Assembly (NCBI GenBank): GCA_030849075.1
Contig: JASAOO010003418.1
Coordinates: 1-57,832, forward strand
Direction of reading: 5' to 3'
Length of the DNA: 57,832 bases
Origin: Zelonia costaricensis
Taxonomy: Eukaryota > Euglenozoa > Kinetoplastea > Trypanosomatida > Trypanosomatidae
Notes under the pieces: model-generated
The model's input: only the letters and a program-made list of their open reading frames with translations
Databases searched by the model: none
What the model was told of the DNA's origin: nothing
Made by a program: the position numbers and the translations under genes
In this document: one piece after another, positions 7,569 to 37,790 of the stretch
Position numbering within the stretch: the stretch's first letter is position 1
Layout of the letters: every line of letters begins with the position of its first letter

Positions 7569-9182
7569 CTAAGCCTGGTAGTACTTGTTGAGGAACTCGC
7601 GCAGGACATCCTTGACGATGGAGCGGTCGGGAATGCGCTGCGCTGTGCCGTAGAGGGTGCCGCTCGACTTGCCGAGGCGGTGCTTTTTGCCCTGTGCAAT
7701 GAGGTTCTCGTACTCGACGAAGAGGTTGTCGCCAATCTCCTTGACATCGCGTAGGAAGCGCGCCGTCACTTCAGGCGGTGTCTGCAGCATCGTCACGCTG
7801 AACTGCAGGCCAGACGGGAACTGCAAATTGTTCAGCACCCACCCACGCGTCTTGAGGCCGTCGCCAAGCTGGAAGATGTCGATCTTGTTGCTCGTGAAGG
7901 CAAAGACGCTGGCGCTGGGCTTGCCGATGACCTGGATGTAGGGCAGCTTGTCCAGCTCGGTCGTCATCGTCTCGCGTGCCGTCACGATCTTGTCGCAGCA
8001 CTCCACGTACCCCTCAAGCCCCATGCGCACCATCGCGGCCCACGTACCGGCAATCACGTTGCCCGGCTTCGAGCCGCTCACAGCAGGCGAGCAGTACATG
8101 CCACCGGGCCACTCTGCAACGCAGCAGAACTGGAAGCTGCGCAGCTCCTTCGAGCGGTACAGCACCGTCGATGTCCCCTTCGGCGCGTAGCCGTACTTGT
8201 GCGTGTCGCACGAGATCGATGTGACGCCGCGGTTGCGGAAGTCGAAGCAGGGCGCGGGGCGGCCGGTGCGCTCGAGGAAGGGCATGATGAAGCCACCGAG
8301 GCAGCAGTCCACGTGAAAGCCGATGTTGTGCTTGTACGCAATCTCCGCAATCTCCTCAATGGGGTCCACGACGCCGTGGGGGAAGTTGGGCGCCGAGGCC
8401 GCGACGGCGATGGTATCGTACCGGATGTACTTCTCCATCTCCTTGGGGTCAACGCGACCTGTGGCCGCCACAATTGGCACCTTGATCAGATCAATGCCAA
8501 AGTACTCGGCGCCCTTGTCGAAGGCGGGGTGGATCGTGATGGGGGCGATGACCGAGGGCCGCTCGATACCACGCGTCTTGCGACCCCAGTCCCGGTACGA
8601 CTTGAGCGCCATCATGATGCTCTCCGTGCCGCCCGACGTCACGGCACCGCCGGCGTCGGGGAGGAGGTGGCCGTTGTACATGTGCAGCACCATTGACACA
8701 ATCTCGGCCTCCATCTTGCGGGTCGCGGCGAAGATGTCGCTGTGCAGCGGGTTGCTCCACTGAAAGATGCCCATGACGCTGTTGATGAAGGTTGTGTGAG
8801 AGCGGCCGCCGTGGTACACGGTACCGCTGAAGCCGCCCTCAGAATAGTCGAGATCGAGGTCATTGTGGAACTGCGTGACGAGCTCGATCACCTCGTCCTC
8901 CGACCGCGACTTCTGCGGCAGCTCGAGCGCCTTGAACTCGCCCTCCGTGGACCGCATATTCATCCCACTTACGGCCTTCTTCACCTCCTTGCGGATAATG
9001 GGGTCCGCGACGGAGCGGATGACGCGCCAGACGGCCTCGTGCGAGCGCGTGCGCAACCGACCATCGCGGAGGCAGTCCACAGCCACCCGCACCGCAACCG
9101 CGCACGACAAGGTGATCACAATCACCTGCGCGGGTGTGCGGTCCTTCAGCCGCTCGTTCACGTACTGCGCAAGGGTCGTCAT
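7569..9182 (-). CDS. SPL: Sphingosine-1-phosphate lyase, PLP-dependent
   Basis: 537 residues, close to the usual eukaryotic length of about 550-590. The enzyme cleaves phosphorylated sphingoid bases to a fatty aldehyde and ethanolamine phosphate; in Leishmania this is known as a main source of ethanolamine phosphate for phospholipid synthesis. A hydrophobic segment at about residues 19-36 is the expected ER-membrane anchor, with the catalytic domain in the cytosol. The group II decarboxylase/PLP fold follows: an S-G-G-T-E-S block at 183-188, F-H-V-D-C at 289-293, and the Schiff-base lysine K329 in D-T-H-K-Y-G-Y-A-P-K-G, the family signature. The ATG at 9182 was chosen because the protein aligns from there and a splice acceptor lies about 70 nt upstream. 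The frame stays open further upstream, but that part is pyrimidine-coded low complexity containing an unresolved base. No key residue appears missing. Confidence 0.95.
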   Translation of the reverse strand: MTTLAQYVNERLKDRTPAQVIVITLSCAVAVRVAVDCLRDGRLRTRSHEAVWRVIRSVADPIIRKEVKKAVSGMNMRSTEGEFKALELPQKSRSEDEVIELVTQFHNDLDLDYSEGGFSGTVYHGGRSHTTFINSVMGIFQWSNPLHSDIFAATRKMEAEIVSMVLHMYNGHLLPDAGGAVTSGGTESIMMALKSYRDWGRKTRGIERPSVIAPITIHPAFDKGAEYFGIDLIKVPIVAATGRVDPKEMEKYIRYDTIAVAASAPNFPHGVVDPIEEIAEIAYKHNIGFHVDCCLGGFIMPFLERTGRPAPCFDFRNRGVTSISCDTHKYGYAPKGTSTVLYRSKELRSFQFCCVAEWPGGMYCSPAVSGSKPGNVIAGTWAAMVRMGLEGYVECCDKIVTARETMTTELDKLPYIQVIGKPSASVFAFTSNKIDIFQLGDGLKTRGWVLNNLQFPSGLQFSVTMLQTPPEVTARFLRDVKEIGDNLFVEYENLIAQGKKHRLGKSSGTLYGTAQRIPDRSIVKDVLREFLNKYYQA

Positions 9183-11471: not shown

Positions 11472-13109
11472 TCAGAACAGCACGGTAAGAGCCTCGCCGG
11501 GGTAGAAGATGAAGCAGGCGGCGATGCGGGGGTGCAGGTCTGCCACAACAATGCCGCGATCGTCGCTCTCGTTGACGACGATGCGGAGGGTGCCTTGGGA
11601 GCCGTCGTACTGGAAGCGCACCCGGTCCCCGTGGCCGCACACCGGCAGGCGCCGCACCGCCGAGGTGTAGCGGCCAACCTGGCCGTCAACGACACCGGCG
11701 CACGACGGCTTCCAGTAAAAGCCCGCCGGCACCTGCCCAGGCTGCGACGTCTTCTCCACCACCCCAATGAAGGAGTCCGATATGGCGTCGAGGCGCACCT
11801 GCCACGTCACCACCCCGCGGTCCTCCGGGTACTGGGCCAGTAGCGTCTGGAACATCTCCTTGCTACGCACGCCGATCTGTGTCGCACCGCCGCCGCGCGC
11901 GACGCAGCGCAGCCGCACCCCCTCTGCCAGCGCCGTCGCCTCAACATCGTCGTCCACCGGGAAGGTGAGCCGCAGCGGCGTCGTGGGCAGCGGGCCACCA
12001 AACGAGGCGCCGGAGATGCCGTTGACGGAGATGTTGCCCGGCCCATCGACAATCGCGGAGCGGTTCATGCCCGAGGCGGTGGAGCGGTAGTTCTCGACGG
12101 TCTGCAGGTCTAGGCTTATGTCGAGGTTGGCCAAGGTCATGTCGCCCAGGTGCAGCATCTTGAACCCGCTTCCTGTGACGGAGGGGAGGTCGGAGGCGAG
12201 GCTGTTGCCCAACTGCGAGTGCCGCTCGAGCACCTCCACATCGGTGCCGCCGTGGTGAATGCCGCGGAACTGCATCAGCGTCTCGTTGAGCGTGTTCAGC
12301 CGCTCGAGGTATTGCCGCCGCGACGCCGTCAGCGCCGCATCACCGCCCTCGCGCAGCGTCGTGAGCGTGCGGCGTACTTCGAGCTCGCGCTGCATCAGCT
12401 GCTGCCGAAACGCTTCAAACCGCTCCGTGACCATGTTCTCGACCGCGTCGTACGTGTCGGAGTACAGCACCGAGACTCGGTTCAGTTCAGCCGCCTGCCG
12501 CTCCAGTCGGCCCTTGTTTTCCACAATGGCCTGCATGTCGCGCGACATCTGCTGCCGCGCCTCGGCGGCGGCCACCGCGACCGTGACGTGGCGGTGCTCG
12601 CGGTGCGGGCCGACCTGCAGGCAGTACGCGCAGCAGATTTGGCGGCACGGGACACAGAAGAATTCGGCCCGGTACTCCTCGTGTCCACGAAGTTGGCAGC
12701 GTCGGAGAAAGCTGCGGCTCGTCTCGCTGAGTTTGCCGATTGCGTGATCGCGCTTCGCGCTGTTCTTGTGCACGGCCACGCAGCAGTCCTCGCAGTACAC
12801 GCACATGCACTCGGCGCACTGCACCGCGGCTGTCGCCGTCTCGCACCACTGACACACCGCGGGGTCGGAGGTGCCCTTGGCGAGCGCCTCGACGTACACC
12901 TCCGCCTCGTGGTCTACATACTGGGGAAGCGTGCTTGCGTGGATCTCCGTGTACGGCGTGGCGCACAGGGGGCACTGGAAACCGGAGTCGCCGTTCTCGG
13001 CAAGTCGCGCGCGCACGCAGGCGCCACAGAAGGAGTGATGGCACTCCAGCGTCACCGGGTGGCTCAAGACATTAAAGCACAGCCCACATGTGATGCTGCG
13101 TGACGGCAT
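11472..13109 (-). CDS. TRIM-type protein: RING, two B-box-like fingers, coiled coil, SPRY-like C terminus (putative E3 ubiquitin ligase)
   Basis: 545 residues. RING finger at 8-49 with all eight C3HC4 ligands (C8, C11, C23, H25, C28, C31, C46, C49). A first B-box-like finger follows at about 86-122 (C86, C89, C98, C101, C106, C109, H114, H122) and a second at about 143-174 (H143, C152, C155, C160, C163, H169/H172/H174). A helical, probably coiled-coil region spans about 180-300. The C terminus (about 430-545) looks like a SPRY/B30.2 domain: a W-K-P-S block, then G-D-R-V-R-F-Q-Y-D-G, a strand, and a final I-F-Y-P-G-E. The order is that of animal TRIM proteins, so E3 ubiquitin ligase activity is likely, with SPRY as substrate-binding module. 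Substrate unknown. The start at 13109 places the RING at the very N terminus; a longer open frame upstream adds only spacer-like residues. Confidence 0.82.
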   Translation of the reverse strand: MPSRSITCGLCFNVLSHPVTLECHHSFCGACVRARLAENGDSGFQCPLCATPYTEIHASTLPQYVDHEAEVYVEALAKGTSDPAVCQWCETATAAVQCAECMCVYCEDCCVAVHKNSAKRDHAIGKLSETSRSFLRRCQLRGHEEYRAEFFCVPCRQICCAYCLQVGPHREHRHVTVAVAAAEARQQMSRDMQAIVENKGRLERQAAELNRVSVLYSDTYDAVENMVTERFEAFRQQLMQRELEVRRTLTTLREGGDAALTASRRQYLERLNTLNETLMQFRGIHHGGTDVEVLERHSQLGNSLASDLPSVTGSGFKMLHLGDMTLANLDISLDLQTVENYRSTASGMNRSAIVDGPGNISVNGISGASFGGPLPTTPLRLTFPVDDDVEATALAEGVRLRCVARGGGATQIGVRSKEMFQTLLAQYPEDRGVVTWQVRLDAISDSFIGVVEKTSQPGQVPAGFYWKPSCAGVVDGQVGRYTSAVRRLPVCGHGDRVRFQYDGSQGTLRIVVNESDDRGIVVADLHPRIAACFIFYPGEALTVLF

Positions 13110-18205: not shown

Positions 18206-21200
18206 TTACCGCGACGCCGCACGGGAGCCGACGTTTTGACGGTGGCCCGCCCCGAGAAGACCGACCACGTTGGCGTACGAGGCCCACAGGTTCGACTCAC
18301 ACTGCTCCACAATATCCGGCACACACTGCGCACCCAGCAGCGACCACAGGTCGTCGATGTCGTCGGGCGCCACGACGGAGGTCATGACATCGAAGGAGGA
18401 GCCGTAGAGCATGCCCCGCACGCGGCACGACAGGCGCCGCGCCGCCAAGTTGTATGGCTCGGGCACGACGGACTGGATGGAGAGCACGAGCGGGATCTGA
18501 TGCGCCTGGATGGCGGCAACGATAGACACGTCCTGCATGCCACGCTCAATTGCACGGCGCACGGCCGCCTCGTCGAGGGTGACCTGCGCATAGCGCCACA
18601 CCTCCGACACCAGGCTGTCCTGAAGCGCCATCGAGAGCCCGTGATGCCGCAGCGAGTCGGCCACCACCGTCACGGAGCTGAGCGCCTCCGTGCTCTCCGC
18701 CACCTCGAGCGTGACGCAGCAGGCGTGGCAGGAGCCAAAGCAGTGTGCTTGGCCCGAGACAAGAAGCCGGAGGGCGGCAGCCGCCACCGGGTCGGCGTCC
18801 TGCGTGGCACTCCCGCTGGACTGCTGCTGCTGCTCTGGCTGTGAAGACGGCAGCGCGGCGGTGGTAGAGGCGGCGCGGGCGAGCTGGATGAGGATGGGCT
18901 GCTCCGGTGAGCCCTCCACGAGGACCGCGCCAAACTGCAGCGCGTGGCCGCATCGGGCCATGAGCGACAGGGCCCGAGTGTTCGTGTCCATCTCCAGCGA
19001 CGCACCTGGAATGACGGTGTTCTCAAGGTACAAGACGGCATTCCCTTTGAGCGAGACGCGGAAGCGGCTGTCGCCGACGTGCCCGGTAATGACGCGCAGG
19101 GCCGTCGCAACCTGGAGGCGGATGCCGCCTAGGTCGCACGCCGCACCGGGCCGCGGGAGGTTTGACAGCTGCGAGGGCGCGGTGTCGCGCTCTTCCGAGC
19201 TGCACGCGCGGCACAGCAGCTTGAGGTCCTCAACGGAGCACCCGCTAAGCCCGATGTGGAAGTTCGTGAGTCGCACCTGCGAACCGCCTTCCGACTGCGA
19301 GGCGTCGACGGTGCAGGCACAGTTGCAGCTACGCGGCACGCCTGGCAAAAAGACCTGACCTTCGCCATCGAGCGGCGAGCAGACCCACCGCCCCGTGCCG
19401 CGCTCGCCCTCGGTGAAACTGGTTTGCTGTTGTGCGGTGGAGCCACCGGCCACGTAGGCGAACGCGCGGAAGTGCAGGTGCGTAACGACAGCACGGGGCA
19501 GCTCGGCAATCTCAGTGAAGCGGTGATTGCCAAAGAAGCCGCGGATCGCGATCATCGGCAGGCCTTGGCCCGCGACCAGCCCGAGCACACTCACCGGCAG
19601 CTCACGCCATCCCCCGGTGTCGCCGCTGCTGCTCGTGAAGCGGGCGCCGTGCGTGATGAAGTTGATGCGGGTGAACCGCTGCTTGGTCAGCTGATTCAGC
19701 TCGCCGCCGGCGGCCCCGTCGTGGCCCAGCGCCACCTCGAACTCGATTGCATCCATGAGGAGGTTCGCGAGCCCGAAGTTGACGCCCTCACCAGACACCG
19801 TGAAGCGCAAAATGCCTCCACTGCCACTCAGCGCGGCGTCGGCGTCCGCGGCCTCGCCACCGCCGCTGCCGAGACCGTTCACTGTGAGCACCATCGTCGT
19901 CACCACAAGCGGGTTGCCCTTCGAGTCGACGGCAAAGGCGCTGGGCGGCAGAACCAGGCGCAGCGTGTCCAGCGCCGGGGTGGGGCACTTCGCGAGGCTG
20001 CGCTGCTGCACAAAGTTGACGCCGGTCGCGATCTTGTACGGAAACGGGCTCAGCAGCGGTCGCGCTTCACGGGCACCAGGCACGCCGAGGGCGTACGGCG
20101 GCGTGAACACAACGTCGTTAATGGCGAAGACCACCGTGACGGGCTGCTCCTGGAAGCCCAGCGAGTAGAGCATCACCGCCGCCGAGGGGAAGTGCCTCTG
20201 CGGCAGCCAGTTCGCCTCATTCACCTGGACCACCACGAGCGGGCTCGCCATGTGCTCGCTCAGCGGCGTCATCGCGCCCGGCCCGGCCAGCAGCGCGCCG
20301 AGCTGACGCTGCAAAGGCGAGGAGAGGCTCCAGAAGACCGACAAGGACGCAAAGCAGCTGGCCGCCGGGAAGCCGTACCAGTCGTCGGCCAGGGGGCCCA
20401 CCGCCTCCAGGCAGGGGTAAAACCAGCGCGCGCCGTTCTTCACGAAGTAGACGGCCTGCCGCAAGGCGAGGCGGTGGTGCATCAGGCCAACGAGACGCGT
20501 CATGTGTGAGCCGCCGACAAGCGGCGACGCGGCCGACTCGATCAGCAGGTGAATGAGGTCAGAGGACAGCCGCGACTCGGTGACCCACTCGGTCGGCTGT
20601 CGCGAGGCACTCGACGCCTGCGCCTTCGCCGCCGCCGTCGGCGTCGGTGCCGGGGAGTCGCCGTCCTCGGCGGCGGGCACGGCGTCGCCAGCCAGTCGCA
20701 TCCGCCGCGCCGCGTCCTTGGTCGTCTTCTGCAGGAACGTCTGGTACTGCGTCCGCAACATCTCGACCGCGCCGGCAACCTCGCCGAGGCGGCTCAGGTC
20801 GCCGGACTCGCGCAGCCGACTCTGCGTGCTCGCGTACTCCTCCACGGCATTCGCGCAGCACCGCATAAACTCCGACTCGCGCCCAAACACGTCATGCAGC
20901 CAGTCGTGATAGATCGTCGTGGAGGAGTACCCTGCCAGCGGCTTCACCAGCTGCGACACCAGAGCAGGGCCGCCGCGGCGCACCAGCCAGCTCGCGGTGT
21001 AGAGGTCCACCGCGACGGTGATCGGCGGCGGCAGCGGCGCCGCGGGGTCGTCCGCTGCGACCGGCGGCCCGCACGGCGCGACGCGCACCCGCCACAGCGC
21101 CGACGGCGCGACACCGACGCAGTAGAGCGAGACGATGCGGTCGCACAGCCGCACCGCGCTCTTACTCACCACGACAAAGTCCTCGCCGTTGTCGCTCGTC

Positions 21201-24200
21201 TCCACGAGCACGTTGCATATCGGGTCGTGCGAGGTGGGCTCCGGCGACGGTGGTGGCAGCGCGGACGTTGCGCTCCCCAGCACGGCGCTCGCCCCCGGCG
21301 CCTCCGTCTCCGCGGCGTCGGTGGCGGTGGTGGAGCAGCCGGGGTCGGTGGAGACCGCCCTGCTCTGCACCGACAGCAGCAGTTCGTCGAAGAGCAGCGG
21401 CGCGCGGAAGGACCATGTCACGGTTGACGCGAATGGCGGCGCGACGCCGGCCTCGAGGGTGCCGGCCCCTTGCCAAGACTCAAAGGAGCACTGGAGGACG
21501 GGCAGCCGCGGTGCCCTTGTCGGCTCAGCCGTGACACCGGAGCCGCTCAGCAGCCGTGGGCGCTGCACCTCCGTGAATCCCGTTGTGCTCACGACCATGC
21601 CAGGCACCTCGCTCGTATCGATCATGTCCCAGTACTCGGAGCTGCGGCTGAACCACTCCACGTTGCGCAGCTCCTCGACGGGGCCGCCGTCAACTGGGCG
21701 GAGGCGCCAGTGCGTGCTCGACGAGACCCGCGTGCTGTTCCACGAGACCGACGCCGTGACGGCGGCGCTGCCACCCGTCCCCGACGTGCCGCGCGCTCCG
21801 GTGCCGCCATCCAGCACCGCCGCCGTCAGCCACGACACGCCGTCGGGGCCGAGGTACTCGACGTTGTAGCGCGCCGCGTGGCTGGGCAGAACGGCCCGCA
21901 CGCGCACGAGGCGGACCGGCCGCCCCACCGTGAGCAGCGACATCGGGGCCTCCGTTTTGGCCTGCATCGACGCCGACGCGTCTGCGTTCGTGTGGCCGGC
22001 AGAGGCGGGAGCGGGTGCTGCACCCACGGGCCGCTTCGACGGGGACTGCGGTGGACACATCGAGATGTACGTCTCTGCGGGGCTGTGGCCCAGCCACACA
22101 CGCGTCAGGATGAGCGTGACGTCGGCCGAGGCATCGAGCACGCGCAGACGCCACAGCACATGCGCCCCACAGCTCGGCCACGACAGCGAGCACACCTGGG
22201 GGCGTGTGGCGGTCGCCGAGGCGGTGTTGATTGTCGTGTGCGCTGCGAACTGCCACCGCGTGGCGTCGTCGCTGAACTCGACGGCAACGTGCGCCGAGCA
22301 GCTGCCACCACTCGCGTGGAACTCCGTCTGCCACGTGGTCAAGTCGGTTTTGAGTCGGGTCAGCACGATGACGCTGTTGACGGCGCAGCGGAAGCGGTAC
22401 AGGGCGACCGCCTTGGCTGTCGTTGTTGGCCAGAACAGCTGCGTGGCGCCGCGCCTGCCGGTGTGGGGGTCGTACATGTTTAGCAGCGGCCCGTCGTACT
22501 CGTGCGCGGCGAAGGAGGAGAGGACGAGAGGCGAGACGGGCGGGCCGCCAAACGCGGGGTGCCGTACCTCGCGCCACTCACACCGCAGCCGCCAGAAGCG
22601 GTACATGTCGTCCGGCAGCCACGCAAACGTGCACACGTCGCCGTCGCCGCTGCCGGCGTCGCTGATGTGCACCATCTTTGTCGAGCACGGCTCCTGGTTG
22701 GTTGAACTGTCGCCGCACCACATGGTGCACGCGCACGAGTGGCCCGCCGGCGCGCCGTCGCGAAGCTTGAAGGCAACGCTGCACAGCGACACCGGCGCTG
22801 CGCCAAAGTCCCACAGCAGCTCGTACGCGACGCAGTCCACGGCCGGCTCGCCCGCCGCAACGGCGGGGGGGTGGCACAGCTCGAGCGACAGTTTCGCCGC
22901 GCCGAGGCTGCCGCCGCCAAAGAAGGCGCGCAGGTCCTCGGCTGTCGTGGCCTGCACAACGCCGCAGACCCGCTCCGGCACGCTGCGGCATCGATGGCGC
23001 TGCACTGTCAGAAGGCGCAGCTGCGAGTACACCTGCGCCGAGGCAACGCAGTCGCGCTCCGTTGACGCGGCGGAGGCGACGGCACCGCCCTCGACCTCTG
23101 CAACGCGGGAGATGCGCCAGAAGGGGCACTTGCTCAGCGTGTACGCGTCGCTCGGCAGCCACATCGTCTCGCCACACACGCGCCGCCCCGCCCTCTGGCG
23201 GTGCATGGCAACGTCGCGCCAGCCGCTGCAGCCGTCGGCGCTGCACTGTACCTGCCAGCACGCCCGCTCGCCTGCGCGGCCACCGGAGCTGCAGAGCTGC
23301 ATGCCGGTGATGAGCAAGCTGTCGCCCGTCTCCCCGTGCACTGCGGTCAAGAGCCGCGGCACGTCGAGGAGGATGCGGCACTGGTGCTGCGGCTGCCCCC
23401 ACTCCCGCAGGTACAGCGGCACCGAGTAGAAGCTGCGCGACTCCGCCAGCGGCCGCACCGCAGCGTCGTCGTCGCTGCCGCCCGCGGCATCGTGGCTCTC
23501 CGACTCGTCTGTCGCGACGTGGCCTTGTGTCGGCGGCGACACCGTCTGTACGCCACGGTCCCAAAAGAGGTACCACGTCGCTGGCGCACTGGGGTCGCAG
23601 AGCACCGTGTGCAGCGTGCTGCCAGCCGCCACCGATGCCGATGCTGTCGCACGAAAGCGGCGCTGCAGGTAGCTGCTGAGCAACTCCGGCGTGTCGAGGA
23701 CGGTGCCGGTTGTGAGGTTGAACTCCACGTAGCGCACCTCGGGTTCACCAAACGTCGAGGCGACGTGAAAGACACCAATCACGGCCGCCCCCTCGCCGCT
23801 CAACCAGCAGTTGACGGTGGCCACTACGACGGCGATGGGCACCGATGCGAGCCCGCCGAGGAGCGCCGAGGTGCGCCACTGCACAACCTCGCTCAGCGGG
23901 CGCTGCTCGTGCAGGTCCCACTGCAGCATCCACTCACCGCGGAGGAAGGCGACGCGGCCCGGGTGCCGCGACGGGGCCGTGTAGAAGGCGGCGTCCCAGC
24001 CAAGCACAAACGGGTACGGCAGGTGGCGGAAGCCGACGTGCTCGACAATCGGGTACGACTCAGCCTGCACGGTGTTGGCGACGTTGTGGTGATGGCTGCA
24101 CCAGACGCGCAGAATGGACGAGGCGCAAACAAAGAGGCAGCTCGGCGTCGCCGCGCTGCCCAACTCCGGCAGCACCGCGTGCGACGCAAACCAGCCCCCT

Positions 24201-27200
24201 GCCGCGTGGCTCGCGTCGTCGACGAAGACGGGGTGCAAGTTGTCGCGCGAGATGAGCTGCCGCGCTGGCTGCAAGAGCTCCTTGGCCTCGATGATGAGGG
24301 CATCACGCAGGGCAGGCGGGATTCCGCGCGAGGTGGTGGACCAGGCCGCCTCCAGTGCGGCATCCGCCGGGCTTGACGGTCGCTGCGGCGGCAGTGGCGG
24401 CACCGTGAGCATCAGCGGCAACCACGGCGAGACGCTTGTGTGGGCCAGCGCCGGCGTCTCGGCGAAGCTCCCCGGCACGGCCTCCATCCAAAACAGCCGC
24501 ACGACGCCGATCGCGGCTGGCACGGGCGTCAGAAACCGCAGCCGCCAGAAGCGCGCCGCGAAGGAGGTGACGGAGCCGGGACCGCTGCCCCAGCGCGCGA
24601 CCACGACCGGCCCCGTTACGCGCACCATCGCCTCCGAAAAGTACACCTGACCGTCCATGCTGCTCTCCACGTGGGCAACCAGGTTGCACAGCTGCAGCAG
24701 CGACTCCGGCAGCGCCGACGTGTCGAGGAGGAGGAGCAGCGCCGTAAAGATGCGCTGCGGGGCACTCGCCCCGAGGTCGTACTCAATGAAGGAGGCGTAG
24801 CGCGACCCGTCCACCTCCGCAGCGAGGCCAAACCGCCGGATGGGGGAGTGAGGTGACGGCGGGGCCGACGTGGGGCCGCTGACACCGCCGCCGCCAACGC
24901 CGTGCTCGGGCGAGGCCGGCGACGCCGCACCGGCGTTCTTCCCCTCCGGGGCGTCGCCGTAGAAGAGCGCTTCATCGCTCCAGGTAGAGTCGACGCCGAC
25001 GTCCGCCCCCGGCCCCAGCGCCGACCCGCACCGCGACAGCGCAACGGCCGCCCGTTCGCCAAGGCTGGTCGCGGCAAGCGAGGAGCCGACGCGCGTCGCG
25101 AAGGGGCCGCCGCGGCCACCGCGGGACCCGTCCGCCTCGCTGGGGGGCGAGGGCGGGCCCGGGGCCACGGTGCTCGCGCTCTTCGATGCGCGCGCTGCCG
25201 CGTCGCCGCCGCCACCGAGGAAGCTCTGCGCGTGTGACAAGAAGCTCGCTCCGTCTCCACCACACCGCTGCGCCTCCGCGTCGAATACCTGCAGCTGAGG
25301 GGCGGTGACCGAGCCCGGCGCCACCGTCGACGCGTCCTGCCGCATGGTGCACTCGGTCTGCACCGCCAGAGCGCACAAGCTCGCGAAAGCGGTTGACGTG
25401 TACTGCCGGAAGATGAGCGGCAGGTTCTGCAGCGGCGCCTGCGTGAAGGTGTCGGCCGCGCCGCGGACACTGACGACACGGCGGTGCGCTGGCTGTGCAG
25501 ACCTCGACACGTCCTCCTCGCTGGCGTTCGCCGCGGCCGCCGGCTCCGCATCCTCTGGGAGCAACTCCCACTGCACCGGCACCACGGCACCGGTGCGGCT
25601 GACCATAAAGTAGTAGGTCTCGCTGCTCTCCTCAGTCCGGCCGTCGCGCACGGCGAACGCGCTCGTCGGCGGCGTCTTGAGGAGGCCCTGGAGTTCCTTT
25701 CCGAGGAGCAGCGGGGGCAGTGCGGTGCTGAGGGCGCGTGCGCCGTCCGCCGCCGCCGCCTCATCGTCCGCGTCACTGTCAGCGGCGGCACCGCCGTTCG
25801 CAGGGCTGTCGCCTTGCCCCTCGACTAGGTCGGGGTGCAGGGTGCGAATGAGCTCCGCCAGCGCGGGCGGCATGCCGGCCGAGGCGTAGTCGCCCGCGGC
25901 GCGCGCCGTGTCTGACAACGCCTGAAGCGCCGGCGGATTTAGGTAGCCGAGGCCGCCCACGCAGCGGCGCTGGCTCACGTCGAAGGCTGTGTAGCAGAAG
26001 TCGCGGAAGAAGACGAGCAGGTTGGTCCCGGGCACGGGGAGGACGCCATCAATGCGGTCGTGAAAGAGGGCCGGCAGCCGGCGGAACTGCCCGTGGCGCC
26101 GCATCGCGTACGGCCCTTCCACGCACTCAGCGAGATGCAGGTCAAAGAGAAGCCACTCGCTGCCCGAGAAGAAGAAGACCAGATGCGGCTGACCAGGGTA
26201 GGGCGCGGCCGCTTCGATGCCGGTGCGGAACGGGAAGTCGCACAGCACCGGATCCTCTGCCATGACGACCGGCGCGCACACCATGCGCGACTCGGCGAGA
26301 CTGTAGGCGGTTACCGTGTCGCCAATGAAGAGGAGCAGTGCTTCCGCTGTCGTGGCCGGCGCCGGTGTGTCGCAGGGGAGGGCGCAGTGACCTGGGAACG
26401 GCACGGCGATCCACGGCTTGCCCAGCAGCCGTGTCGGTATCGCGTCTGTGCCGTCGCTCTGCGCCAGCGGCCTCGCCATCGACTGATCGCGCCCCCGTGC
26501 GCTCCGCTTCGTCGGGGACTCCGAGGCCGCCCGCTCAACGATGGCCGATGAGTCCGGCAGCGGCAGCGCGCGGACGAGCTCCATGACGCCCAGGTTGGCG
26601 GCGGCCTTGAACACGCCCTGCAGGTTCGCCCGCTCCTCTGCCCACATCCGGTTGAGCTGCGTGCGAACGCGGTTCATTGGCGACCCCGGCGCGGCGCCGT
26701 CCGAGGGCAGGAGCGGCGACGAGGATGGACGCTGCGCAACGCTCCGCTTCCGGTCTCCCAGTGCCATGCTCTCCGGCGACTTGTCGCGCGGCGACCGTGT
26801 GGAGCCGACGGAGCTGACCTTCTCCGAGTTGCGCCGGCGCGGGCCGGTGCTGGAGGCGGAGATCGACGGCGACTTGCCCGCTGGCCGCTTGCGGCGATCG
26901 CCGGATGAGACGCGGGCCGGCGGCTTCGGCGTCTTGCCGGGCGGCTTCGCGCTTTCAGACGCCGCCGGGGCCGTGTTGTTCGCCCCACTCGCGTTGCTGC
27001 GGGATGGTGCGTTCGAGTTGGTGCGACTGCGCTTGTCGCTCTTCCGCGACGGCGACGCGGAGCGCTGCCGCTGCGTCGATGTCGGCGGCGACGGCGTGCG
27101 ATCTGGCAGACGCGATGTGGAAGAGTGCGGCGCCGTCTTGGCGAGAGCGACGTCGTCGACGAAGTGCGCCGGGGCGCGCGGTTCGAGCAGCGTTGCCTCC

Positions 27201-29857
27201 ACTTTCTGCGACGACGCGGCCAGTGTTGAGATCCAGCGGTGCTCGAGCAAGCCGGATGGGGGCAGCGGGGCGTACTCCAGCCCGTGCCGCACGCTGAGGC
27301 TGCACGACACGCGGCCGGCCGTCGACGTCGGCGTGGCTGGCGCGATGATCGCCTCCGCCGCACGCAGCGCCGACTGTAACCACTCCACGCCATCCTGTGA
27401 GGCGCACACCTCGCTGATGAAGTACAGCATCTGCGAGGGGTAGCGGCTCGACTGAAGGACCCGCTCCCAGTACGTGCGAACGGCCACGCTGCGGCTGAAC
27501 TGTTCGCGGTCACCGCCCGAGTGGCGTGCCGCCAGTCGCGCCGCCACGGCCATGGCGCGCCGCGACTCGAGCAAGTTGCGCAACACGCGCAGCGACACCG
27601 GGAGCTGCGCGTCTGTGAAGAGCTGCCTCAGTGCGCTCACGTCGCAGGACTGCACCGTCGGCGTCCACACCGTGCGCACGACCCCGCGTGCCTCGAGCCC
27701 GAGCACCATCATGCACATCAGCACACGGCGCACGAGGTGCAGCCTGGCGGGCGAGGCGACGCCGACGGCAGCGCCGACGAGCTCGCAGCCGTACACGGGC
27801 GACGGCGCCGCTGCGGCGCGGTACTCGGGCCCGACGGCGTCGACGAAGACAAACGCCATGCCCTGCACCGTCTGCAAAAAGATGCTCTTGGAGAGGTAGA
27901 AGAACCCCTTGTGCCCGGTGCTGGGGCCGAGCGGGCACTGCAGGATGAGGTAGACGGTGCTATCCGCCGTTGTCTGCCCCACCACCTTGGCGGTTGTGTA
28001 GAAGCCGTGCGTGTGCGCCGACGCGTCCGGCCCGATGACGCCGCGCGGCAGCGACAGCCACGCGACGGCAAACTTGATCGTGACAAGAATAGACCGCCCG
28101 AGTTGTCGCAGCGTCCAGAGCGCAGCACGGATTTGGTCGAAGATGTCGTGGTGCGGGCCGTCCACGACGCAGATGCGCTGCCGCCGGTGCCCGAACGCGC
28201 GGTGCAGCCACCGCTGCGTCTTCGCCTCGCCGCTCCGGCTGCTCCACGCGGCCCAGTCCGCAACCACGTCACGCGGGGCCGCGCCGCCGCGCCGCTTGTA
28301 CGGCGCGTCGCTCACAGGCAGGCAGCCGACGAGACGCGCCGCCTCACAGGCGCTGGCCAGGTCCATGCCGAGCGACCGCAGCGGCTGCTGGCGGAGCTGC
28401 CGACCAATCGCGAAGAGAAGGTACGGGTCCATCGCAACGCCCTCCTCGTCGCCCAGGGAGCTAGCCACCGTCAGCGCACAGTTGATCTCCTCGCCGCACA
28501 CGTCCTCGACCACCTCGCGCTCGATGTCGATGACGCTGAAGTCGACGAGAGGCAGCCGCTGCAGCTCGCCAAGGCCGCCGATCACGCTCGACAGAGGCGG
28601 GTAGCCGCTTGCGTACGTGCACACGACGCCACCGTAGCCGAAGAGGGCGTAGCGGACAAGGTGCCGCACGCACCGCCGTGAGCACGGCTGCACGTTGGCG
28701 TACATGGTGAAGAGACGGCAGATGCGCACGAGGGCGACGGGGGTGATGAGGGCGTGGTGTTCGACAATGTCCTTCATGAGCACGCGCAGCAGCCACGTGG
28801 GGCCGTCCTGCGAGCACTCGGACTGGTTCCCGCACACGGTGCACCGCGGTAGCTGTGGGCTCCGGTTGTCATCGAAGAAGGCGTCGATGTCGGTGCGAGC
28901 CTGCTTGGAGCGCCACCGCTCCTCCCTCGCGGCGTCTGTCGGACCGGGCACGAGCAGCGACGGCAGCGGCGCCGCGTCACCCGAGCCGTCCGCGTGTTGT
29001 GGCTTTTCCTGGTCGGCCTCCGCTTGCAGACGGCTGTGCTCGCGTGTCAGGTAGGCGCGCAGGAAGAGGAGGTTGGGCGCATCGAAGGGCATCTGCCAGA
29101 GGAGTGCCTTCAGCACGCTCGAGACGCACCGGCACAGGTCCTCCGCCAGCGACTCGGCGCAGACGCCGATGCAGACGGCGAGGATGCCCGAGTTGCGGTC
29201 CATGCACTGCTGCAGCGCCCCGCACAGGACACGCAAGCCGGCCACGCTGACGGCGTGCTCGGTAGGCTTCAGGTGCTCGAGGACAAAGCGGATGACCTGC
29301 GTCTCGCAGGACGTGGCCGCCGTCGACGGCACGCCGGCGCCGCAGATCACGCACTCGTTCATTCGGTACGTCGCCTTGGCGTTGCGGTTGCACTGTTGCT
29401 GGATGGCCACGAACTTGGGCAGCGCGTCGTCCATGAGCACCTCCGTAATGAGCTGGTTGCGCGACACAAGGTGAAGCAGCTCCTTTGCGCCCCCAATCGT
29501 GAGAGGCACGCCGCGTACGTCAATCTTTTCCAGCTGTGGGTGCTGCGCAAAGGCGGCGCAGATGATCTTGATGTCCTCGACGCTTAGCGCGCACTTGGCC
29601 AGCAGCAGGGCCCGCAGCGGGGCCCGCTGTAGCGTGTGCACAATCGGCACAATTCCGCTCCCGCCGAGATATCCGTTTTCGAACTCAATCATGACAGACC
29701 CGAGCAGGAGCTGCTTGAGGAAAGTCGAGTGGATGAAGACCCCATCGCGGCGGCACGCCGCCTCGTAAAACGCAGCCGCCTCCTTGGGGCTCAGCAGCGC
29801 GTCGCTCGTCAGCAGCGGCGTCGGCGCCACAGCCGCCGTCACGGAGGCCGCCATCAT
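18206..29857 (-). CDS. Giant modular protein with hemopexin-like and tandem discoidin-like segments, unnamed
   Basis: 3883 residues from one open frame of 11.65 kb; not recognised as a named protein. In order: a leucine-rich-repeat-like N terminus (about 50-165); two short C-x2-C clusters (near 170 and 337); a Ser/Pro/Arg-rich low-complexity linker (about 950-1115); and hemopexin-like strand motifs of the form F-x-G-x-E-W-x-L-x-x-D-L (W1235 and W1976 regions). Six W-R-[LVI]-[RS] motifs follow at W1771, W2247, W2422, W2569, W2717 and W2922. Several are preceded by S-D/D-G-x-x-W strands, as in F5/8-type-C (discoidin) galactose-binding folds. Near 3541 an S-V-E-D-L-K-L-L-C segment echoes S92-V-E-D-I-K-I-I-C at the N terminus. 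No signal peptide or transmembrane helix stands out, so it is probably intracellular, perhaps structural. Function is unknown; a large scaffold for cytoskeleton or flagellum is a guess. The start is the first of two adjacent ATGs. Confidence 0.85.
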   Translation of the reverse strand: MMAASVTAAVAPTPLLTSDALLSPKEAAAFYEAACRRDGVFIHSTFLKQLLLGSVMIEFENGYLGGSGIVPIVHTLQRAPLRALLLAKCALSVEDIKIICAAFAQHPQLEKIDVRGVPLTIGGAKELLHLVSRNQLITEVLMDDALPKFVAIQQQCNRNAKATYRMNECVICGAGVPSTAATSCETQVIRFVLEHLKPTEHAVSVAGLRVLCGALQQCMDRNSGILAVCIGVCAESLAEDLCRCVSSVLKALLWQMPFDAPNLLFLRAYLTREHSRLQAEADQEKPQHADGSGDAAPLPSLLVPGPTDAAREERWRSKQARTDIDAFFDDNRSPQLPRCTVCGNQSECSQDGPTWLLRVLMKDIVEHHALITPVALVRICRLFTMYANVQPCSRRCVRHLVRYALFGYGGVVCTYASGYPPLSSVIGGLGELQRLPLVDFSVIDIEREVVEDVCGEEINCALTVASSLGDEEGVAMDPYLLFAIGRQLRQQPLRSLGMDLASACEAARLVGCLPVSDAPYKRRGGAAPRDVVADWAAWSSRSGEAKTQRWLHRAFGHRRQRICVVDGPHHDIFDQIRAALWTLRQLGRSILVTIKFAVAWLSLPRGVIGPDASAHTHGFYTTAKVVGQTTADSTVYLILQCPLGPSTGHKGFFYLSKSIFLQTVQGMAFVFVDAVGPEYRAAAAPSPVYGCELVGAAVGVASPARLHLVRRVLMCMMVLGLEARGVVRTVWTPTVQSCDVSALRQLFTDAQLPVSLRVLRNLLESRRAMAVAARLAARHSGGDREQFSRSVAVRTYWERVLQSSRYPSQMLYFISEVCASQDGVEWLQSALRAAEAIIAPATPTSTAGRVSCSLSVRHGLEYAPLPPSGLLEHRWISTLAASSQKVEATLLEPRAPAHFVDDVALAKTAPHSSTSRLPDRTPSPPTSTQRQRSASPSRKSDKRSRTNSNAPSRSNASGANNTAPAASESAKPPGKTPKPPARVSSGDRRKRPAGKSPSISASSTGPRRRNSEKVSSVGSTRSPRDKSPESMALGDRKRSVAQRPSSSPLLPSDGAAPGSPMNRVRTQLNRMWAEERANLQGVFKAAANLGVMELVRALPLPDSSAIVERAASESPTKRSARGRDQSMARPLAQSDGTDAIPTRLLGKPWIAVPFPGHCALPCDTPAPATTAEALLLFIGDTVTAYSLAESRMVCAPVVMAEDPVLCDFPFRTGIEAAAPYPGQPHLVFFFSGSEWLLFDLHLAECVEGPYAMRRHGQFRRLPALFHDRIDGVLPVPGTNLLVFFRDFCYTAFDVSQRRCVGGLGYLNPPALQALSDTARAAGDYASAGMPPALAELIRTLHPDLVEGQGDSPANGGAAADSDADDEAAAADGARALSTALPPLLLGKELQGLLKTPPTSAFAVRDGRTEESSETYYFMVSRTGAVVPVQWELLPEDAEPAAAANASEEDVSRSAQPAHRRVVSVRGAADTFTQAPLQNLPLIFRQYTSTAFASLCALAVQTECTMRQDASTVAPGSVTAPQLQVFDAEAQRCGGDGASFLSHAQSFLGGGGDAAARASKSASTVAPGPPSPPSEADGSRGGRGGPFATRVGSSLAATSLGERAAVALSRCGSALGPGADVGVDSTWSDEALFYGDAPEGKNAGAASPASPEHGVGGGGVSGPTSAPPSPHSPIRRFGLAAEVDGSRYASFIEYDLGASAPQRIFTALLLLLDTSALPESLLQLCNLVAHVESSMDGQVYFSEAMVRVTGPVVVARWGSGPGSVTSFAARFWRLRFLTPVPAAIGVVRLFWMEAVPGSFAETPALAHTSVSPWLPLMLTVPPLPPQRPSSPADAALEAAWSTTSRGIPPALRDALIIEAKELLQPARQLISRDNLHPVFVDDASHAAGGWFASHAVLPELGSAATPSCLFVCASSILRVWCSHHHNVANTVQAESYPIVEHVGFRHLPYPFVLGWDAAFYTAPSRHPGRVAFLRGEWMLQWDLHEQRPLSEVVQWRTSALLGGLASVPIAVVVATVNCWLSGEGAAVIGVFHVASTFGEPEVRYVEFNLTTGTVLDTPELLSSYLQRRFRATASASVAAGSTLHTVLCDPSAPATWYLFWDRGVQTVSPPTQGHVATDESESHDAAGGSDDDAAVRPLAESRSFYSVPLYLREWGQPQHQCRILLDVPRLLTAVHGETGDSLLITGMQLCSSGGRAGERACWQVQCSADGCSGWRDVAMHRQRAGRRVCGETMWLPSDAYTLSKCPFWRISRVAEVEGGAVASAASTERDCVASAQVYSQLRLLTVQRHRCRSVPERVCGVVQATTAEDLRAFFGGGSLGAAKLSLELCHPPAVAAGEPAVDCVAYELLWDFGAAPVSLCSVAFKLRDGAPAGHSCACTMWCGDSSTNQEPCSTKMVHISDAGSGDGDVCTFAWLPDDMYRFWRLRCEWREVRHPAFGGPPVSPLVLSSFAAHEYDGPLLNMYDPHTGRRGATQLFWPTTTAKAVALYRFRCAVNSVIVLTRLKTDLTTWQTEFHASGGSCSAHVAVEFSDDATRWQFAAHTTINTASATATRPQVCSLSWPSCGAHVLWRLRVLDASADVTLILTRVWLGHSPAETYISMCPPQSPSKRPVGAAPAPASAGHTNADASASMQAKTEAPMSLLTVGRPVRLVRVRAVLPSHAARYNVEYLGPDGVSWLTAAVLDGGTGARGTSGTGGSAAVTASVSWNSTRVSSSTHWRLRPVDGGPVEELRNVEWFSRSSEYWDMIDTSEVPGMVVSTTGFTEVQRPRLLSGSGVTAEPTRAPRLPVLQCSFESWQGAGTLEAGVAPPFASTVTWSFRAPLLFDELLLSVQSRAVSTDPGCSTTATDAAETEAPGASAVLGSATSALPPPSPEPTSHDPICNVLVETSDNGEDFVVVSKSAVRLCDRIVSLYCVGVAPSALWRVRVAPCGPPVAADDPAAPLPPPITVAVDLYTASWLVRRGGPALVSQLVKPLAGYSSTTIYHDWLHDVFGRESEFMRCCANAVEEYASTQSRLRESGDLSRLGEVAGAVEMLRTQYQTFLQKTTKDAARRMRLAGDAVPAAEDGDSPAPTPTAAAKAQASSASRQPTEWVTESRLSSDLIHLLIESAASPLVGGSHMTRLVGLMHHRLALRQAVYFVKNGARWFYPCLEAVGPLADDWYGFPAASCFASLSVFWSLSSPLQRQLGALLAGPGAMTPLSEHMASPLVVVQVNEANWLPQRHFPSAAVMLYSLGFQEQPVTVVFAINDVVFTPPYALGVPGAREARPLLSPFPYKIATGVNFVQQRSLAKCPTPALDTLRLVLPPSAFAVDSKGNPLVVTTMVLTVNGLGSGGGEAADADAALSGSGGILRFTVSGEGVNFGLANLLMDAIEFEVALGHDGAAGGELNQLTKQRFTRINFITHGARFTSSSGDTGGWRELPVSVLGLVAGQGLPMIAIRGFFGNHRFTEIAELPRAVVTHLHFRAFAYVAGGSTAQQQTSFTEGERGTGRWVCSPLDGEGQVFLPGVPRSCNCACTVDASQSEGGSQVRLTNFHIGLSGCSVEDLKLLCRACSSEERDTAPSQLSNLPRPGAACDLGGIRLQVATALRVITGHVGDSRFRVSLKGNAVLYLENTVIPGASLEMDTNTRALSLMARCGHALQFGAVLVEGSPEQPILIQLARAASTTAALPSSQPEQQQQSSGSATQDADPVAAAALRLLVSGQAHCFGSCHACCVTLEVAESTEALSSVTVVADSLRHHGLSMALQDSLVSEVWRYAQVTLDEAAVRRAIERGMQDVSIVAAIQAHQIPLVLSIQSVVPEPYNLAARRLSCRVRGMLYGSSFDVMTSVVAPDDIDDLWSLLGAQCVPDIVEQCESNLWASYANVVGLLGAGHRQNVGSRAASR

Positions 29858-35015: not shown

Positions 35016-36332
35016 TTAGCTGACCGCCTCTGTCGCAGGCAGCGGCATCACCAGCGTGCGTGGCAGCGACAGGGTCGGCGACACGACAAGGAACGGCTTC
35101 GGCAGCTCCCCGCCCGAGGGGGCGAGCACGCTCACAAAGTGCTTGCCCACCTCGAGCAGGACCACCAGCCCAGCCACGTTCGCCTCCACCGCCGAGGCCG
35201 GCGTGTCCGCCCACACCACGGCGGCCAGACACAGATCGGGCACCTCACTCCACCCCAGCGGCTCGAACGTCTCGGCGTGCAGCAGCACAACGTCGGACAT
35301 CTGCACAACGCCGCGCACCGGCATCAGCGCCGTGCGCGGGGTGCCGAAGAAGTACCGCTCGAGCCGCGCGCGCTGCCGCATCTCCACAGCTGCCGCACTC
35401 GGTGGCAGGGCGCCGGCGAAGGCGGGCATGCGCAGGAACTGGACCGTGCGGCCCAGCACTGCGTTGCTGAGAAAGCGCTCAAGGTCCTCGTCAGCGCCGG
35501 CGACGACGACGTGCGTGACGGCGAAGATGGCGAGCACATCACTCAGCACGTCGTGCGCGATCTCTGTCGACGGGGACAGAGAGTGAACGACGAAGCCGCC
35601 CGCCTCGAACTTCGCGTTTGCGAACCCGAGCGAGGTAGCCGCCTGTGCGGCGCACACGCAGAGGTCAAGGTAGCGTTTACGCGTGGCGCTCGTGACGGAC
35701 GCAGAGCCGTGAAAGAAGGCGAGCGGCATGACAACGTCGAAGTCTTCCGGGGCAACCACCGGCTCCTCCACAAAGGCGGCTGATACGGTGCCCGGGCACC
35801 CCACAACCGGCATGCTCACGTCTACATCGACGAAAGCAACTCCGTGCGGGCTACCGCGACGGGTGGCGAGGTTCAGCAGCGAGCGAGAGATGATCTCCCG
35901 CTCCCACGCGTTTTCGCCGACGACGAGCACACGCGGGCCCTGCCACGAGTCCTTGAGCTCCTCAGAGCTCGTCAGCGCCGCCGCTGCTGCTGTCGTCGTG
36001 CTCCGCTCCTCGATCGCGAGCATTGCGTCCACACGGGCCGTGTCGAGCAAGGCGTGGATCTCATCGAGGGCCCCGTCGATCGGCGTCACCGCGGTGCTTG
36101 CGGCTCCCTCAACCTGCAGTACCGCGTCGGCAAACACCTCGATCAAAATGCACGTTTCAGCCGGAAAGGCGTAGCGCAGGTTTCGGGTCAGTGGACTGCG
36201 GTACAGCTCCGCTCGTCCGCTCAGCAGCACCACTGCGCCGCCGCCGTCATGGCCTGCGTCCCATTGGAGCAGCACCGTCTCCTGGCACAGCTGCAGCGTG
36301 GCCCGTGCCGCACGCGTCTGCGCCGCCATCAT
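35016..36332 (-). CDS. CLP1: Clp1-like mRNA 3'-end processing factor with degenerate Walker A
   Basis: 438 residues, the usual Clp1 length. Clp1 belongs to cleavage factor II in pre-mRNA cleavage/polyadenylation and, in animals, is an RNA 5'-OH kinase. The N-terminal beta domain matches at 33-78 (L-L-S-G-R-A-E-L-Y, then Y-A-F-P-A-E-T). The central NTPase-like domain begins at R134-V-L-V-V-G-E and keeps F-V-D169-V-D171 followed by G-C-P-G-T-V, the Clp1 form of Walker B and the next strand. F-H-G-S-A-S (207-212) stands where the family has F-G-H-T-S. The C-terminal domain contains Y-F-F-G at 327-330. The P-loop, however, reads G139-E-N-A-W-E144-R145-E146, so the second Gly, the Lys and the Ser/Thr of GxxxxGK[ST] are all lost. 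Catalysis and normal ATP binding look impossible, which suggests a structural role. In trypanosomatids polyadenylation is coupled to trans-splicing of the downstream gene. The start is the first of two adjacent ATGs. Confidence 0.85.
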   Translation of the reverse strand: MMAAQTRAARATLQLCQETVLLQWDAGHDGGGAVVLLSGRAELYRSPLTRNLRYAFPAETCILIEVFADAVLQVEGAASTAVTPIDGALDEIHALLDTARVDAMLAIEERSTTTAAAAALTSSEELKDSWQGPRVLVVGENAWEREIISRSLLNLATRRGSPHGVAFVDVDVSMPVVGCPGTVSAAFVEEPVVAPEDFDVVMPLAFFHGSASVTSATRKRYLDLCVCAAQAATSLGFANAKFEAGGFVVHSLSPSTEIAHDVLSDVLAIFAVTHVVVAGADEDLERFLSNAVLGRTVQFLRMPAFAGALPPSAAAVEMRQRARLERYFFGTPRTALMPVRGVVQMSDVVLLHAETFEPLGWSEVPDLCLAAVVWADTPASAVEANVAGLVVLLEVGKHFVSVLAPSGGELPKPFLVVSPTLSLPRTLVMPLPATEAVS

Positions 36333-36926: not shown

Positions 36927-37790
36927 TCAAGAAAAAAGCTTGAGGGCGCCTGTGATCGGCTTCAGCACCTCCGCCGGTGCTGGGCCAATCGCGACAATCA
37001 CAACCTCCCCTGGAGTTGACGGGGCCTGCACGGCGCCTGCCGGGGTTGCTGGCACGGCGTCTTCGCGACGGAGCAGCGCCATGGGCAGCCGCGCCGCCTC
37101 AGCGGCAGTCACGAGAGCGTGCATCGTGTCCGCGTCGGGGCACTTGAGGGCAATCTTGGCGCAACCGATTCGGTTCCACCAGAGGTACCAGCGGCGCCAC
37201 CGCGTGCGCTCCTCCGCTGTCACGGACGCCGGTGCTGGCAGCGTCCTGGACGGTGAGCCGGCATCGCGGGTCGCCTGCTGTCCTCCTTCGTGATTCTGCA
37301 GCTCCACCAGCTCAATGCCTGCCGACGCGGTGAGGACTGCGACCTCCTGCGCCGTGACCTTGGGCTGCACCGTGTTGCGCACCACAAACACGATCTTGAG
37401 CTGGAGCGCCTCCATCTCCTCGTACTCGCTGTCCGCCTCGTCGGACGATCCGCTCCCAGTCGACTCCCAGCTCGCCTCATCGCTCCCCTCGCCATCCACC
37501 TCTGCCGCGGTGTTCTCAGGTACGTCGAGTGGTGGTGTGCTTGGCGAGGCGGCCGCACCGGACGCGTGGCGCATCTTTTCGAGCTGCTGCGTCGCCCGCT
37601 CTCGCCGCGACAGCACCGGCGGCGGCGCAGCGGGGAATCGCGGCCAACCGAGCCGTCGCAGGACGAGCTGCCGCAGTACCGCGGCGCACAGCAGGGCCGT
37701 GCTGCACCCGAGCAGCGCACCGAGGACGGCGACAAACGCCGGGGCAGCAGCGGCTGCGGCGTCCGCGGCAGACGATTCGACGAGGCTCAT
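36927..37790 (-). CDS. Membrane-anchored protein with a degenerate peptidyl-tRNA hydrolase 2 (PTH2) domain
   Basis: 287 residues. Residues about 17-39 form a transmembrane anchor. A basic juxtamembrane segment and an acidic Ser/Glu linker (about 95-127) follow, then a PTH2-fold domain at 131-287. Fold markers are clear: L-K-I-V-F-V-V-R138 at the start, W205-N-R-I-G-C-A-K-I-A-L-K216, and the C-terminal A-I-G-P-A-P-A-E-V with G-A-L-K-L-F. The N-terminal anchor resembles animal PTRH2 (Bit1), which sits in the mitochondrial outer membrane. The catalytic segment normally reading M-x-K-G-K-x-A-A-Q-x-x-H-A is V-Q-P-K-V-T-A-Q here with no His. The D-A-G-x-T-Q loop is replaced by E-D-A-V-P-A-T. A 30-residue insertion splits the first half of the domain. 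Hydrolase activity is therefore doubtful. The first in-frame ATG is at 37790. Confidence 0.78.
   Translation of the reverse strand: MSLVESSAADAAAAAAPAFVAVLGALLGCSTALLCAAVLRQLVLRRLGWPRFPAAPPPVLSRRERATQQLEKMRHASGAAASPSTPPLDVPENTAAEVDGEGSDEASWESTGSGSSDEADSEYEEMEALQLKIVFVVRNTVQPKVTAQEVAVLTASAGIELVELQNHEGGQQATRDAGSPSRTLPAPASVTAEERTRWRRWYLWWNRIGCAKIALKCPDADTMHALVTAAEAARLPMALLRREDAVPATPAGAVQAPSTPGEVVIVAIGPAPAEVLKPITGALKLFS

Follow-up and report, generated by a model that had tools for sequence, protein, structure and literature searches.

A giant trypanosomatid protein, probably the paraflagellar rod component PFC8, with an array of six diverged discoidin-like units

The window analysed here is a stretch of 57,832 nucleotides from Zelonia costaricensis (contig JASAOO010003418.1, assembly GCA_030849075.1). 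Its longest open reading frame (ORF), P0001 (18206..29857, minus strand), encodes a giant protein of 3883 residues. Comparisons of sequence profiles support the presence in this protein of an array of six diverged F5/8 type C (F5/8C, discoidin-like) units, each presumably a β-sandwich. From its gene order and its leucine-rich repeat (LRR) and hemopexin architecture, P0001 is probably the orthologue of LmjF30.2390/Tb927.6.3670, that is, of PFC8. The reading that is favoured, with reasonable though not high confidence, is that P0001 is PFC8 with six diverged F5/8C-like domains and acts as a long bead-like flagellar scaffold. The modules follow each other in the order LRR, middle region, hemopexin set 1, unit 1, hemopexin set 2, units 2–6 and a long C-terminus.

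Eighteen relatives of 3162–4051 residues were gathered by three protein searches, the first two of which scored only candidates sharing most words, and were aligned with P0001. Thirteen are from Leishmania, Novymonas, Leptomonas, Trypanosoma brucei, T. cruzi, T. rangeli and T. vivax; the others are P0009, P0011 and P0013–P0015. In the alignment of 19 sequences, identity to P0001 is 53–56% for Leishmania and Novymonas, 41–42% for Leptomonas, P0009 and P0011, and 26–27% for Trypanosoma and P0013–P0015. These values suggest a trypanosomatid source close to Leishmania and Novymonas. The gene is present in single copy: a 1326-residue piece of P0001 matches only its own locus at E ≤ 0.001 in the genome of 28.67 Mb and 755 contigs. 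The computed masses are 414 kDa for P0001 and 359 kDa for the T. brucei protein P0017.

An earlier note on this DNA had drawn attention to six W-R-[LVI]-[RS] sites. P0001 has exactly six W-R-[LVI] motifs, all of the W-R-[LVI]-[RS] form, at W1771, W2247, W2422, W2569, W2717 and W2922 (window positions 24547, 23119, 22594, 22153, 21709 and 21094). When the residues of the whole protein were shuffled, a mean of 0.16 sites was obtained and six were reached in none of 20,000 shuffles, nor were they in 20,000 shuffles restricted to residues 1640–3000; a chance origin of the six sites was rejected on these counts. All six tryptophans are invariant in the 19 aligned sequences. The following arginine is invariant at R1772, R2718 and R2923 and conserved to at least 90% at R2248 and R2570, R2423 falling in neither class. 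The strand of the form S-D/D-G-x-x-W described upstream of several sites is found loosely in units 1, 2, 4, 5 and 6 of P0001, with Y or F replacing W in units 1 and 6 and without S in unit 5. It is absent from unit 3 of P0001, where the T. cruzi protein carries SDDGSRW.

The spacings of 476, 175, 147, 148 and 205 residues between successive tryptophans were confirmed in P0001. The period of 147–148 residues deduced from them did not hold, as it fits two of the five intervals and is not conserved among the 19 sequences. The T. cruzi spacings are 376, 144, 132, 110 and 211, and the fourth interval, between units 4 and 5, spans 109 to 234 across the alignment; a true period was rejected on this basis. 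Because the spacings vary between species, the apparent period results by accident from the lengths that the inserts happen to have in this lineage. What repeats is a domain core of about 100–110 residues, with species-specific inserts.

The units were delimited, all on the minus strand, as residues 1684–1795 (unit 1, W1771; 24473..24808), 2146–2286 (unit 2, W2247; 23000..23422), 2337–2458 (unit 3, W2422; 22484..22849), 2488–2592 (unit 4, W2569; 22082..22396), 2627–2738 (unit 5, W2717; 21644..21979) and 2786–2962 (unit 6, W2922; 20972..21502), the last with a long insert and a core at 2880–2962. Aligned to each other with hhalign, as the earlier note had proposed, using a 19-sequence profile for each unit, they prove to be related: 17 of the 30 ordered pairs score 61–96%. 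As controls, the units were also compared with 14 segments from elsewhere in the protein, and all 84 comparisons gave 2.5% or less. Unit 5, the weakest, pairs only with unit 6 (84–87%); with the others it reaches at most 16%. In a leave-one-out search, a profile of five units gave some hit on the omitted unit in all 19 proteins. With an independent E-value (iE) below 1e-3, units 1–6 were recovered in 18, 10, 11, 19, 4 and 18 of the 19 proteins, respectively, and the best match outside the units had an E of 0.13 (calculated for 19 sequences). In P0001 itself, units 1, 3 and 4 were found with iE of 1.1e-5, 0.001 and 2.2e-10. An hmmsearch with all units pooled returned six strong domains in each of the five proteins listed (P0001, P0009, P0013, P0016 and P0017), the profile being built from sequences that include those searched. 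Additional matches in these five proteins were at chance level (E 0.7 and 1.4), and a possible seventh unit near residues 3708–3763 was rejected (E 0.7). Judged by their profiles, the six units constitute one related repeat family.

The relationship to F5/8C domains was examined with domain sets from six Bacteroidota genomes, comprising 30 F5/8C (PF00754), 30 fn3, 16 CBM6 and 30 laminin-G-3 (LamG) domains. Sequences shorter than 60 residues were excluded, leaving 30, 30, 14 and 28, respectively. The pooled units consisted of 111 of 114 sequences, three of at least 150 residues being dropped, and unit 6 entered the pool trimmed of its N-terminal part and its insert. The pooled units match the bacterial F5/8C profile with a probability of 91.2% (E 1e-6 for one comparison) over 81 columns; fn3, CBM6, LamG and four reversed profiles give 0.0–0.2%. 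As a yardstick, a discoidin/factor V profile compared with the same bacterial set scores 97.9%. Individually, units 1–6 score 62.4, 73.8, 53.3, 58.7, 2.3 and 62.2% with F5/8C and at most 0.8% with fn3, CBM6, LamG and reversed F5/8C, and 16 segments outside the units reach at most 0.9% with F5/8C. An earlier, thin F5/8C profile made of discoidin-1, discoidin-2 and factor V had given 14% with the pooled units, 0.1–9% with single units and 0.1–0.2% with two reversed decoys.

The units also stand out when the F5/8C profile is run over the profile of the whole protein. The best alignments fall on units 2, 4, 3, 6 and 1, with scores of 36–31, to be compared with 20.6 for the best of 20 column-shuffled profiles, 18.9 for fn3, 16.3 for CBM6 and 21.8 for LamG. 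A sixth match, on unit 5, covers 9 columns at 0.2% and is at chance level. With the bacterial F5/8C hidden Markov model, all 15 matches listed in the 19 proteins lie within 60 residues of a unit tryptophan, none of them being significant (E 0.018–1.0).

The order of motifs typical of F5/8C domains, an S-x-D-G-x-x-W strand followed by an ARY-[IV]-R-[LI] strand, is present in loose form. In unit 4, VEFSDDATRW aligns on the strand SLEVSMDGKTW and HVLWRLR on QARYIRF. In the pooled alignment, as in those of units 1, 3, 4 and 6, the ARY-[IV]-R strand is matched by the W-R strand; for units 2 and 5 the aligned region stops short of it. PFC8 units and F5/8C domains (discoidin; PF00754, CBM32) share an S-x-D-G-x-x-W-like strand and then an aromatic-R-x-[RK]-[LI]-like strand, in line with the pooled match of 91%. 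They differ in that the PFC8 units remain below the Pfam cut-off, leave the first third of the profile unmatched and, following the published listing discussed below, lie in a cytoplasmic rod protein. The earlier proposal of at least four tandem, diverged discoidin-like domains is supported by the sequence profiles, with six units.

Several results weigh against this assignment. Thirteen of the 30 ordered unit pairs score below 50% with hhalign, and in the leave-one-out search of P0001, units 2 and 6 (iE 0.17 and 0.083) are at the level of off-unit matches and unit 5 reaches only 0.013. Unit 5 alone fails against the F5/8C profile, and over the whole protein the F5/8C matches reach probabilities of only 13–4%. 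Pfam was run on nine of the 19 proteins, and the F5_F8_type_C cut-off was reached in none: the best score is 16.7 bits against a cut-off of 28.2, in P0013, whose orthologue of unit 2 matches PF00754 below the cut-off with an E of 0.0082, and P0001 gives no match to this family. A search of the window's own genome for PF00754 returned nothing. A search of the PDB with a 12-sequence profile, covering units 1–4 only, yielded 17 rows, none below E 0.036. Besides the factor VIII rows considered below and one galactose oxidase, they include short or unrelated matches to S-D-G-W strands in GH43 enzymes, 6n1a and XepA. Other searches were likewise negative: an NCBIfam scan of P0001 and P0016 and a phmmer search of the PDB with one T. 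cruzi unit found nothing, and tblastn with a short CBM piece gave no match in plasmids and one irrelevant match in phages.

Such results leave some room, on a clearly smaller scale of probability, for the units being another galactose-binding-like β-sandwich (APC10/DOC1-like, IFT25-like or another CBM, for example) or a family of the superfamily peculiar to kinetoplastids, rather than F5/8C proper. Besides the nine complete proteins, 12 isolated units also failed to reach the Pfam cut-off, two of them matching below it (best E 0.064). In addition, the F5/8C match begins no earlier than column 54 of 156, which leaves roughly the first third of the profile, and with it any homology of the N-terminal strands and the ligand-binding spike loops, outside its range. 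Against this alternative, CBM6, which we take to be another galactose-binding-like family, scores only 0.2% with the pooled units. Moreover, the PDB rows, all weak, are headed by 4a42, presumably a CBM32 structure, and eight of the 17 belong to factor VIII, a protein with F5/8C domains. A reading of the W-R motifs as coincidences in a stretch of unrelated folds is strongly disfavoured and very improbable. The unit pairs devoid of detectable similarity and the unconserved period would fit with it, but the shuffles, the invariance of the six tryptophans and the unit–unit and F5/8C matches with their clean controls do not.

Two sets of hemopexin-like repeats, at residues 1140–1320 (set 1; 25898..26440, minus strand) and 1855–2110 (set 2; 23528..24295, minus strand), are related to each other (95% with hhalign). 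Read by eye, each set has four blade-like stretches, and a further one follows set 1 at about residues 1415–1485. An eight-sequence profile of both sets matches five PDB chains with E between 9.5e-8 and 1.2e-5, led by LS-24 (9.5e-8) and CP4 (1e-7) and including three called lectin (about 1e-5); one more chain is found at 9.8e-4. Among these solved chains only CP4 is listed as a hemopexin fold, but the others are hemopexin-fold proteins as well. Matrix metalloproteinase (MMP) and vitronectin chains match weakly (E 0.05–0.4). The Pfam family PF00045 was not matched, and a search of the window's own genome gave none either, but neither did its 14 control genomes. The sets share blade-like repeats with hemopexin-fold proteins (plant LS-24 and CP4, vertebrate hemopexin and the C-terminal domains of MMPs). 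They differ from them in that PF00045 is not reached and in that the two sets flank a discoidin-like unit, unit 1, with units 2–6 placed after set 2.

The N-terminal region (residues ~20–160; 29378..29800, minus strand) has the character of an LRR (RNI-like) domain, with sub-threshold matches to LRR_6 in P0013, P0014 and P0015 (E 0.01, 0.007 and 0.21) and to NLRP1 chains (E ~0.3). Residues 75–155 of T. brucei P0017 match FAP101 (7n6g; E 5.7e-4), presumably the Chlamydomonas central-pair protein. Confined to some 80 residues of LRR type, this match may reflect LRR similarity in general or kinship with a flagellar LRR family. LmjF.30.2390 is annotated as 'RNI-like' in PMC4632311.

Following the LRR region, invariant cysteines C169-x2-C172 and C229-x3-C233 are repeated as C339-x2-C342 and C392-x3-C396 (residues ~169–396, window ~28670–29353); they look like a putative duplicated module of zinc-binding type. 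At the other end, about 780 C-terminal residues (3090–3866, window 18260–20590) are conserved without a convincing Pfam match. By eye, stretches of this region share a G-V-N-F / F-E-V flavour, which may represent another repeat.

The identity of the protein was approached through the gene neighbourhood. In the window, the neighbours of P0001 on the same minus strand include genes for CLP1 (35016-36332) and PTH2 (36927-37790). T. brucei CLP1 is Tb927.6.3690 (PMC3287031) and POMP31 is Tb927.6.3680 (PMC10432679), and by gene numbering Tb927.6.3670 lies beside both. In PMC2813431, Tb927.6.3670/LmjF30.2390 is listed as PFC8, among 20 uncharacterised proteins of the PFR2-dependent paraflagellar rod cohort. 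PMC10048164 names Tb927.6.3670 'paraflagellar rod component 2' and counts it among transcripts longer than 10,000 nt, with which the 3222 codons of P0017 are consistent. A paper from 2010 describes LmjF30.2390 as related to serine peptidases and as bearing an LRR and hemopexin repeats (PMC2950143). Gene order, together with the LRR and the hemopexin repeats, thus makes P0001 the probable orthologue of PFC8, from which no differences are expected. P0017 is presumably Tb927.6.3670; the indirectness of this link counts against the favoured reading.

According to the earlier note, such an array would be a scaffold not previously described. The protein itself is known, and its LRR and hemopexin repeats are published, so those assignments are not new; the discoidin-like array, absent from the literature searched, is an added domain assignment on a known protein. 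The searches on discoidin and galactose-binding domains, with supplementary files and most subscription journals outside their scope, returned no mention of an array in this protein, which is weak evidence, and the word discoidin is absent from the available parts of PMC2950143 and PMC2813431.

Other genes of the window, all on the minus strand, encode a pyridoxal phosphate-dependent decarboxylase-like protein (7569-9182), a RING/B-box protein (11472-13109), a DnaJ protein (54737-55741) and an HSP70 truncated where the window ends (56910-57731). A 980-residue ORF on that strand (48324-51266) has no Pfam match at E 0.01 and, by eye, a MYND-finger-like cysteine cluster.

Hemopexin and discoidin domains are usually extracellular. 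It is unlikely, on balance, that the protein is displayed on the surface or exported in infected cells, with its hemopexin and discoidin-like domains binding heme, lipids or host glycans, and evidence exists on both sides. An intracellular location is deduced from the published paraflagellar rod listing and is disputed by PMC2950143, where LmjF30.2390 label is found on the amastigote surface and in the host cytosol; this stands against the scaffold reading. The label was seen in macrophages infected with L. pifanoi, using an antiserum against a clone of the homologue from that species, and the reaction was confined to infected cells (PMC2950143). A 'signal peptide' is given for LmjF.30.2390 in PMC4632311, but the table in PMC2950143 states 'No' for a signal sequence. 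The same antiserum sees a doublet of about 95 kDa in infected cells, far from the computed masses; promastigotes and axenic amastigotes lack a comparable band, and the host nuclear label is not significant (PMC2950143). The PFR2-dependent flagellar proteome, furthermore, includes PFC8 (PMC2813431). Finally, conservation of the protein extends to Leptomonas, Novymonas, T. brucei and T. vivax, as the alignment indicates. These organisms are not known to have an intracellular stage in a vertebrate host cell.

As a flagellar scaffold, PFC8 would be a long, bead-like protein in the flagellar cytoplasm, within the paraflagellar rod. Its LRR, hemopexin-like and discoidin-like modules would each dock one partner, such as the rod lattice, axoneme connectors or regulatory enzymes, and the discoidin-like units would probably dock protein rather than sugar or lipid. 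This structural docking role is proposed because of the rod listing, the large conserved multi-module build and the invariant core motif residues without a clear ligand site. It is the most likely role but a predicted one, and the indirectness of its support weighs against it. A more specific and rather doubtful proposal is that PFC8 is one of the filaments by which the rod is tied to the axoneme or to the membrane of the flagellum, the discoidin units being an intracellular reuse of a normally extracellular recognition domain. Some of these units might then keep lipid or protein binding, unit 2 having two further invariant residues, H2219 and Q2221. If so, six discoidin-like beads and two hemopexin-like propellers would span a few tens of nanometres, as estimated from domain sizes, which is of the same order as the ~35 nm of PAC7 filaments reported in PMC8277818.

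The paraflagellar rod is an extra-axonemal structure whose finer densities lack protein assignments. In PMC8277818, the resolution is stated to be too low to identify the molecules of the rod scissors and wires. PFC8, a giant conserved modular rod protein, offers a concrete candidate for rod densities, with a predicted shape and length. If the scaffold reading is true, it would be a noteworthy case of a discoidin-like array employed inside the cell alongside hemopexin-like propellers.

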